A stretch of DNA of 54,622 nucleotides from Hydrogenophaga sp. (GTDB lineage Bacteria > Pseudomonadota > Gammaproteobacteria > Burkholderiales > Burkholderiaceae_C), in assembly GCF_028698005.1 (NCBI RefSeq), contig NZ_JAQVEJ010000002.1, positions 1-54,622 on the forward strand, read 5' to 3'. The notes below the pieces were generated by a model, which saw nothing but the letters and a program-made list of their open reading frames with translations, made no database searches and was not told the DNA's origin. A program made the translations under genes and the position numbers. Of this stretch, positions 41,424 to 44,475 are shown piece after piece; position 1 is the first letter of the stretch, and each line of letters begins with the position of its first letter.

Positions 41424-41966
41424 ATGAACAAGCTCTCTTCGATCACCGCCCTCGCCAGCCTCTGTCTCGCATCCCTCGGCGCCCAGGCGCAGACCGTTTA
41501 CGGCGAACTGGGCTATGCCGCCATGTCCGCCAGGCTCAACGTCCCGCTGCTGGGCATCTCGGCCAAGGCCAGCCCGTCCATGGGCCGCGCCGTCATCGGC
41601 GTCTCACCCTTCGCCGGCCTGACCTTCGAAGGTCTGGCGGCCGGCCATCTGGCCGACGACCGGTTCCGCAGCAGCGGCAGCGAAATCCTCAACGGCCGCG
41701 CCAAGATCAACCAGATCCTGGGCCTGTACGTGGGCGGTCGCTTCGGGCTCGGTCCGGTCGAGCTCTACGGCCGCATCGGCCAGGCCCGCAGCGAATTGCA
41801 GTTCAAGGGGCTGGGCTCGACGCACGACAGCGACGTGTCCTACGGCGGTGGCCTGCGATTGATCCCGGGCAAGCACCTGACGTTCAGCGCCGACTACATG
41901 AACTACTACAACAAGGGCGGCGCGCGGCTCGAGGGCTACACCCTGAGTGTCGGCTACCGCTTCTGA
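41424..41966 (+). CDS. Outer membrane beta-barrel protein (OmpX/OmpA-like porin family)
   Basis: Signal peptide ending AQAQ, alternating amphipathic strands, C-terminal YTLSVGYRF (terminal F). Confidence 0.75.
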   Translation: MNKLSSITALASLCLASLGAQAQTVYGELGYAAMSARLNVPLLGISAKASPSMGRAVIGVSPFAGLTFEGLAAGHLADDRFRSSGSEILNGRAKINQILGLYVGGRFGLGPVELYGRIGQARSELQFKGLGSTHDSDVSYGGGLRLIPGKHLTFSADYMNYYNKGGARLEGYTLSVGYRF

Positions 41967-42089
41967 TCGGGCGGCACGCGGCCGCGACCGCGCTCCGCCC
42001 GTTGGCGGCGACCCACATCAGGGAAAACCCCTAAACTCGCCATCTGCTCTTGATTTGCAAACACTTTTCCCCAGATTCATGGGCAGACG

Positions 42090-42170
42090 GATACCTGTTC
42101 GACGCACCTATGCTGCAGCGCAGCATGCAATCGGGCTAACATCAGGTATCAAAGGCTTGGGCCTTTTTTC
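42090..42170 (+). ncRNA. Candidate structured RNA or leader ending in an intrinsic terminator
   Basis: GATACCTG (42090-42097) pairs with CAGGTATC (42143-42150), UUCGA/UCGGG helix, inner ATGCTGC-agc-GCAGCAT, then AAAGGC-ttgg-GCCTTTTTT. Confidence 0.5.
42151..42169 (+). terminator. Intrinsic terminator AAAGGC-TTGG-GCCTTTTTT
   Basis: 6-bp stem, tetraloop, run of T. Confidence 0.65.
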
Positions 42171-42217
42171 TGAATCCGGTCGCGGGCAGCACACGCGCTG
42201 GCCTGCCGCCCCCACAC

Positions 42218-43054
42218 ATGCGATACAAGCTTCTCACAGCCGAGCAGTATGCGCGTCGGCTGCGCCTGCTCATAGCCGAATCCGGCGTTCTGCATCGACG
42301 CGTGCAAAGCGTCGGTGGCCGTGCTGTCATCGGCTGGGGCTACAGTTTCCAGCGCAACAACAACAGCGCCATCTGGCGCGATGCCGGCATTGACCTGACG
42401 ACCGAAGGCTGGGCCCACCTGCGGCGCATCGACGAAGCGCCCACGGGTGCGCGCACGCTGCAGGCACTGGCTTTCGACAAGGTACTGACCGAAGCCGAAG
42501 CCAATCGCCTGCTGGTGGCCTCGTCGCGCGAACACGAAATTCATGCCAACCGGTTCGAGCTGCCGTACTCCGACGAGCGGCTGGCCCTGGTGTCACTGAC
42601 ATTCAGCCGCGGCACCCAGACCCTGACCGAAGCGCACCCGCTGATGGCAGCACTGGCCGCCGGCCACCGTGCCGAGGCCTGGTACCAGTTGCGCTACAAC
42701 TGCTGGGGCTACGCAGCCGATCTGGAAGCCGGCCTGCGCAAACGGCGCCTCATGGAGTCCACCGTGTTCGGCCTGTACGACGATCCCTCGCAGGTCGGCA
42801 TCGACGAAGCACGCCAGGTGGCCGAGATGATCGATCGCCACCGCGCCGAGATCAACCAGGTGGAGCAGCGCTTTGGCCAGACCCTGGCGGGCGTCGAGGG
42901 CCAGCGCGACCTGATCGCCCAGGCCAACCGTGACTACCCGGGCATCGTCAGCACCTGGGGCGAAGTGCCCACCATCCGCGAGGCACTGGCCCCCGCGCGC
43001 AATGCACTGATGGCCGCCGGCCTGGACATCGGTTTGTTCAACCCAGCACCGTAG
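42218..43054 (+). CDS. Lysozyme-like (GH24/T4-type fold) protein with divergent active site, cytoplasmic
   Basis: VIGWGYSF aligned to TIGxGH, LTEAEANRLL, DERLALVSLTFSRG, GLRKRRLMESTVF; no signal peptide; remote similarity by eye. Confidence 0.5.
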   Translation: MRYKLLTAEQYARRLRLLIAESGVLHRRVQSVGGRAVIGWGYSFQRNNNSAIWRDAGIDLTTEGWAHLRRIDEAPTGARTLQALAFDKVLTEAEANRLLVASSREHEIHANRFELPYSDERLALVSLTFSRGTQTLTEAHPLMAALAAGHRAEAWYQLRYNCWGYAADLEAGLRKRRLMESTVFGLYDDPSQVGIDEARQVAEMIDRHRAEINQVEQRFGQTLAGVEGQRDLIAQANRDYPGIVSTWGEVPTIREALAPARNALMAAGLDIGLFNPAP

Positions 43055-44339
43055 CCAGCTCCCGCATCGACGGCCGACGCGAGGGCACCGCGTCCAGACA
43101 GGCTTCGACCCAGGGCTGCAGGCGTGTGGCCCACGCCGCATCGGACGGCGCCAGGCGCTGCAGCAGCTCGTCCATCAGGCAGCCGAACGCCCGCACCTCC
43201 AGTGCCCGCAGGGCATCGGCCACGGGCGCTTGGCCGGTTGGCAGCACCGTGGCGGCGCCGAAGTCGCCCAGCACCGCCTCGCCCGAATCCGGTGAAACGT
43301 GGATGTTGTGCGCGTAGAAGTCGCCGTGCATGACGCTGCGGGCATGCAGGTGGGCGAGCGCGGCGGCCATCGCCCCGAGCCACCCACGCACGGCCTGTCC
43401 ATCGAACAACTGACCCGGGGCGTACACATCGCGCGTGCAGCTCTCGAAACTGGGCGGGCTGGCCAGGGCCACATGTCCGGCCGGCAGCAGGGGCATGAGC
43501 ACGCCCTGCATCCCGTCGGGATGGCCCTGCATCTGCGCCGCCGGCGTGACCAAGGCCGGATGATGGCCGGCGATCAGGCTGGCCCGCCATTCGTCCTCGG
43601 GCCGCCCATCGCTGGTCACCGCCCCCTTGAACAGTTTGAGTGCCCACGACCGCTGCCCGGTGCCCGCCTCGCGCACCCGGTAGATGTCACCCGAGGCCCC
43701 CCCGCCCAGACGGTCTTCCACCACCAGATGGTGCCAGGGCACCACCGGCAGCGCGGGTGTCTCCGGGCACGGCCAGCCCAGCGGATTGCCCGACAGGGCC
43801 AGCCAGCTCAGGCGTGGCAATTCGGTCAGCCAGGCAGGCAGTCGGGGCAGCGCATTGGCGGACAGCCGCAACAGCTCCAGCCGGCGGGCGTCGGCCAGAG
43901 AATCCGGCAGGGCCTGCAGGCGGTTGCCGGCCAGCATGAGTTTTTGCAGGGCCGCCCGCTCACCCAGAGCGACCGGCAGTTGCGTCAGCCGGTTGTCGGT
44001 CAGGATCAGCCAGCGCAGCCGGGCCGGCAGGGCCTGCGCCGGCACGACATCGATCCGGTTCGCCTTGAAGCCCACCATCTCCAGCGCAGGGCAGTCGCCC
44101 AGGCATTCGGGCAGATGGGTGAAATCGTTGTCCGAGCAGAAGATGATGCGCAGGCGCCGCAGGCGGCCGAGGTCGTCCGGCAGTTCCGACAGCCGGTTGC
44201 CGCTGAGGTTGAGCACCTCCAGGCTGTCGGCCAGTTCGAAGATCTCGCGCGGAAACCGGGTCAGGCCGGCCGAGAGATCCAGCCGGCGCGCGCCGGCCAA
44301 TTGTCCGGTGCGCAATTGTTCGAGTGTGTGCGTGGGCAT
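43038..44339 (-). CDS. Leucine-rich repeat protein fused to C-terminal Ser/Thr protein kinase-like domain
   Basis: About seven LxxLxLxxNxLxxLP repeats; LGGGASGDIYRV, WALKLFKG, VMHGDFYAHNIHV, LGDFGAA. Confidence 0.85.
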   Translation of the reverse strand: MPTHTLEQLRTGQLAGARRLDLSAGLTRFPREIFELADSLEVLNLSGNRLSELPDDLGRLRRLRIIFCSDNDFTHLPECLGDCPALEMVGFKANRIDVVPAQALPARLRWLILTDNRLTQLPVALGERAALQKLMLAGNRLQALPDSLADARRLELLRLSANALPRLPAWLTELPRLSWLALSGNPLGWPCPETPALPVVPWHHLVVEDRLGGGASGDIYRVREAGTGQRSWALKLFKGAVTSDGRPEDEWRASLIAGHHPALVTPAAQMQGHPDGMQGVLMPLLPAGHVALASPPSFESCTRDVYAPGQLFDGQAVRGWLGAMAAALAHLHARSVMHGDFYAHNIHVSPDSGEAVLGDFGAATVLPTGQAPVADALRALEVRAFGCLMDELLQRLAPSDAAWATRLQPWVEACLDAVPSRRPSMRELATVLG

Positions 44340-44475
44340 GCGGTCATTGTCGCCAATGCCCGCGCCGATGCCTGCCAGTTTGCAACGTTCTTTGCACGCA
44401 CATCGCTGCAGATTTACAAGCGGGACACGTCCGGGGCGCAACATGAAGGCTCACCAACACCCAGAGGAGTTCTCC

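Follow-up and report, generated by a model that had tools for sequence, protein, structure and literature searches.

The window, meaning the whole 54.6-kb stretch of DNA that was analysed, is one entire contig of a draft Hydrogenophaga genome (3.17 Mb, 281 contigs). A SelO gene is followed here by a gene for an outer-membrane beta-barrel protein and, after a gap of 251 nt, by a lysozyme-like gene, for which no Shine-Dalgarno sequence was seen before the ATG at 42218. An earlier note on this DNA had described the gap as A/T-rich and about 250 bp long; the length was right, but the gap has 61% GC overall, with 49% GC in the segment 42036-42100. The features discussed below are as follows.

41427-41966, + strand: upstream gene for the outer-membrane beta-barrel protein (PF13505, profile match)
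42020-42030, + strand: AGGGAAAACCC, an instance of AGGGWAAACCC, probable operator or promoter-upstream element (from its enrichment; also in the G005 leader, L007:4570-4580)
42050-42077, + strand: weak candidate sigma-70-like promoter TTGATT-16-CAGATT, predicted start near 42084 (PWM scan)
42090-42097, + strand: 5' arm of the outer stem, GATACCTG (direct reading and fold)
42104-42108, + strand: 5' side of the middle helix, GC-A-CC, partner 42133-42136 (minimum-energy fold)
42110-42126, + strand: inner hairpin ATGCTGC-AGC-GCAGCAT (direct reading and fold)
42134-42143, + strand: conserved 10-nt string GGCTAACATC (identical in the G005 leader, unique in its own genome)
42143-42150, + strand: 3' arm of the outer stem, CAGGTATC (direct reading and fold)
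42151-42169, + strand: intrinsic terminator AAAGGC-TTGG-GCCTTTTTT, hairpin of -5.6 kcal/mol (direct reading, strict scan and fold)
42218-43054, + strand: downstream lysozyme-like gene (PF00959, profile match)

The lysozyme-like gene is rare, being present in 4 of the 67 genomes of the genus, the window's included, and in three others among the 401 of the family sample. Its relatives are mainly found in the Xanthomonadaceae; no such leader was seen in front of the homologs inspected there and elsewhere, and the protein had no match among solved structures. A prophage origin found no support, as the gene was without a match in phage and viral-contig collections and BLASTN of the gap against phages and plasmids gave only short chance matches. 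Convergent with this gene, positions 43041-44444 on the minus strand encode a leucine-rich-repeat protein with a protein-kinase-like domain, whose similarity to type III effector leucine-rich-repeat models was below the cutoff and whose matches to defence-kinase models were weak.

The nested stem and the terminator

The outer stem of 8 bp, the inner hairpin of 7 bp and the intrinsic terminator shape ending 48 nt before the ATG, all of which the earlier note had read from the letters, are present in the sequence and occur together in the minimum-energy fold of 42080-42175, where the inner hairpin is lengthened by a T-G pair (42109/42127). A further pairing proposed there, between TTCGA and TCGGG, is missing from this fold, which pairs 42104-42108 with 42133-42136 instead. 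The fold has an energy of -32.9 kcal/mol (z -2.34 relative to shuffles), that of 42090-42150 has -23.9 kcal/mol (z -3.85) and that of 42085-42170 has a z of -3.2, while the 90-nt tile from 42061 ranks 11th among the 1818 tiles folded in the window. Each structural piece by itself is common in the window, which holds 63 seven-bp hairpins and 186 eight-bp inverted repeats spaced by 20-80 nt; the combination is less so.

The terminator hairpin AAAGGC-TTGG-GCCTTT consists of 6 bp, three of them G-C, around a loop of 4 nt, and the U-tract TTTTTT at 42164-42169 lies directly at the stem, with three of its six T inside it. A strict scan for perfect stems of at least 6 bp with a T-tract returned three terminator-like sites for the window, each on the + strand; only the one at 42151 has an 8-bp stem ahead of it. 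A general consensus scan reported no terminator on the + strand, this one included, the likely reason being that half of the T-run is taken up by the stem; the scan's rule of 5 T in 8 bases, beginning 0-2 bases past the stem, is that of a tool and not a biological definition.

The terminator is the first on the + strand after the stop codon of the outer-membrane-protein gene at 41966, from which it is 185 nt away. In G019, G086 and G072, the close orthologs of this gene have a strong terminator shortly past the stop (-19.0 kcal/mol in G019), which suggests that a terminator behind this gene is the norm in close relatives. Furthermore, the best + strand promoter candidate in the gap, TTGATT-16-CAGATT, has a PWM score of 4.89 and ranks about 150th in the window; the G005 leader has a TTGA at the corresponding position, and a stricter consensus scan of the gap gave no promoter. 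The PWM scan found no well-ranked candidate between the terminator and the ATG. Within the gap, no stretch of 6 nt or longer other than its own partner is complementary to the terminator arm, and the gap thus offers no indication of a classical antiterminator switch.

The element has a single copy in its own genome, and the idea that GGCTAACATC could be a genome-wide repeat was rejected because it occurs there only once. BLASTN of the gap against 60 relatives found no copy, the lone 26-nt match being located inside a coding region and attributed to chance. The suspicion that no known RNA family is involved was borne out by Rfam, where nothing reached the gathering threshold and the search at E values up to 10 gave a single match, on the minus strand, to the Betaproteobacteria-1 RNA (RF02932; 12.9 bits where the gathering score is 49.4, E 2.8), which is at chance level. 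Searches of the literature by string and by topic gave nothing on the element among the results listed.

A related leader in Hydrogenophaga G005

An orthologous lysozyme gene with a recognisable leader, and with 72% protein identity, was identified in just one other Hydrogenophaga, G005 (JAJPEW010000209.1), where SelO and the outer-membrane-protein gene are followed by two further genes and then by the leader, the lysozyme gene and the kinase gene. The two further genes, which judged by eye from their translations look like a phospholipase A1 gene and an acyltransferase gene, are missing from the window, where 41966-42218 was compared with L007:2440-4743. After the stop of the outer-membrane-protein gene, the window has a short match with the second gene's 3' end, possibly the trace of a deletion in its lineage.

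The two leaders have AGGGWAAACCC, TGCTCTTGA and GGCTAACATC in common at near-equal spacing, and GGCTAACATC is identical over all 10 nt and located 72-84 nt before the lysozyme ATG. Overall, the similarity of the gaps is modest, with the semi-global alignment score reached by 22 of 1000 shuffles and the local score by 126 of 1000. Around the motif, the G005 leader folds into a stem of 9 bp that has a single mismatch (z -3.3); shuffling of the 5' side alone gave a p of 0.0005 or 0.0055 for the two lengths shuffled, and a simpler test of 6-bp complementarity gave a p of 0.11. Comparison with a homologous region, as the earlier note had advised, was favourable in one respect, the presence of a stem at the conserved motif, and unfavourable in another, as the G005 leader contains neither the inner hairpin nor a hairpin with a U-tract. 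In a structure-led alignment of the two sequences by eye, one pair is changed on both sides (A-T to T-A), another is absent on both sides and a third is broken; in a sequence-led alignment of the same two sequences, the 5' arms fall in non-equivalent positions.

As a search aid, we used a covariance model, R1, whose input included an edited window sequence and an artificial bridging row. In the 67 Hydrogenophaga genomes, R1 recovered the window, G005 and one weak match in G002, which lies between other genes and was judged to be due to chance. At the family level, the threshold used misses the window's own copy, and that search has no bearing on the distribution of the element.

The string AGGGWAAACCC, located 60 bp upstream of the stem-loop element, has 11 copies in the window's genome compared with none for the reversed control, and 692 compared with 37 over the 67 genomes, an enrichment of about 19-fold with copies in every genome. 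At several loci it is located 22-47 nt before a -10-like hexamer, TANNAT. Across the genus it has the appearance of an operator or promoter element, seemingly one bound by a regulator.

A probable lineage-specific terminator and its alternatives

We favor the hypothesis, with a probability of roughly 0.55, that the element is an ordinary, lineage-specific intrinsic terminator, preceded directly by a stable nested stem. While the terminator shape is established, termination itself, the ends of the transcript and any effect on lysozyme expression are predicted from the sequence. The polymerase would enter from the side of the outer-membrane-protein gene, the likely source of the transcripts reaching the terminator, or from the weak promoter near 42050. 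The stem at 42090-42150 would form first, followed by the GC-containing terminator hairpin and the U-tract, and transcription would mostly halt near 42169, leaving a 3' end that is stable and structured. The lysozyme-like gene would then be expressed by read-through only, and the same terminator might possibly end a short transcript, about 86 nt long, that starts at the weak promoter. This hypothesis is consistent with the perfect hairpin and its T6 tract at one of only three such sites in 54.6 kb, with the first position on the + strand behind a gene whose close orthologs are also followed by a terminator, with the lack of a well-ranked promoter further downstream and with a terminator arm that has no alternative pairing. 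Against it speak the modest strength of the hairpin (-5.6 compared with -19.0 kcal/mol in G019), which the consensus scan did not report, the distance of 185 nt from the stop codon and the outer stem, which seems to be kept in some form in G005 and would be needless for a plain terminator.

The earlier note had proposed a small RNA or an attenuating leader, and both suggestions remain conjectural, with no strong promoter ahead, no antiterminator pairing and a G005 leader devoid of the terminator and the inner hairpin. A structured 5' leader, in which the fold at 42090-42150 with GGCTAACATC senses a signal and sets the passage of the polymerase at the terminator, is in our opinion unlikely. The terminator is placed between every plausible promoter and the lysozyme-like gene, and G005 keeps the three shared strings behind a different upstream neighbour, with a 9-bp stem of its own (p 0.0005-0.006 with the 5' side shuffled) and, in the structure-led alignment, a pair changed on both sides. 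However, G005 has neither the terminator nor the inner hairpin, no antiterminator pairing was found in the gap, the 5' arms are non-equivalent in the sequence-led alignment and the leader was found in 2 of the 67 genomes, the chance match in G002 aside.

More doubtful still is an independent small RNA, about 86 nt long (approximately 42084-42169), acting on other mRNAs. The start predicted for TTGATT-16-CAGATT, the end given by the terminator and the compact fold (z -3.2) would fit such a molecule, but its promoter is of low rank and is not seen by the stricter scan, Rfam has no match, the 60 relatives offer just the one short match in a coding gene and the terminator is not kept in G005. We give a similarly low probability to a new cis-acting structured RNA, in which the outer stem with GGCUAACAUC on its 3' side controls the rare Hydrogenophaga lysozyme-like gene and the terminator is an add-on in the window's lineage; the evidence for the upstream stem as a conserved regulatory RNA is thin. 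Least probable is that GGCTAACATC is conserved as DNA, as the -10 of a lysozyme promoter (TAACAT, start near 42149) with an incidental outer stem, since the exact identity over 10 nt at 72-84 nt before the ATG, and the similar strings GGCTAAAATC and CCCTAAAATC that follow AGGGWAAACCC at other loci, are met by the lack of a -35 match (CTGCAG/TGCAGC in the window), a PWM rank of 450 or worse and a start directly ahead of the terminator-like hairpin.

If the element is ordinary, it adds another intrinsic terminator to those known and mainly cautions that nested hairpins ahead of a U-tract should not be labelled as regulatory RNA until comparisons back them. Should the stem and GGCTAACATC prove to be a genuine leader, a bacterial cell-wall hydrolase would be under control at the RNA level. 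The AGGGWAAACCC element of the genus may be of greater importance than the terminator.

Three types of known systems resemble the element. Like the small RNAs derived from 3' ends or intergenic regions, it has a stable fold that ends in an intrinsic terminator, but its candidate promoter is weak and it is not conserved. Likewise, it shares with the terminator-type attenuators and riboswitch leaders a folded RNA directly ahead of a terminator before a gene on the same strand, but not an antiterminator pairing, a known family or a terminator conserved in orthologs. It differs from intrinsic terminators in the longer nested stem directly ahead, the distance of 48 nt to the next gene and the short, weak hairpin, and has in common with them a GC-containing hairpin with a 4-nt loop and an immediate U-tract, with a coding gene of the same strand upstream.
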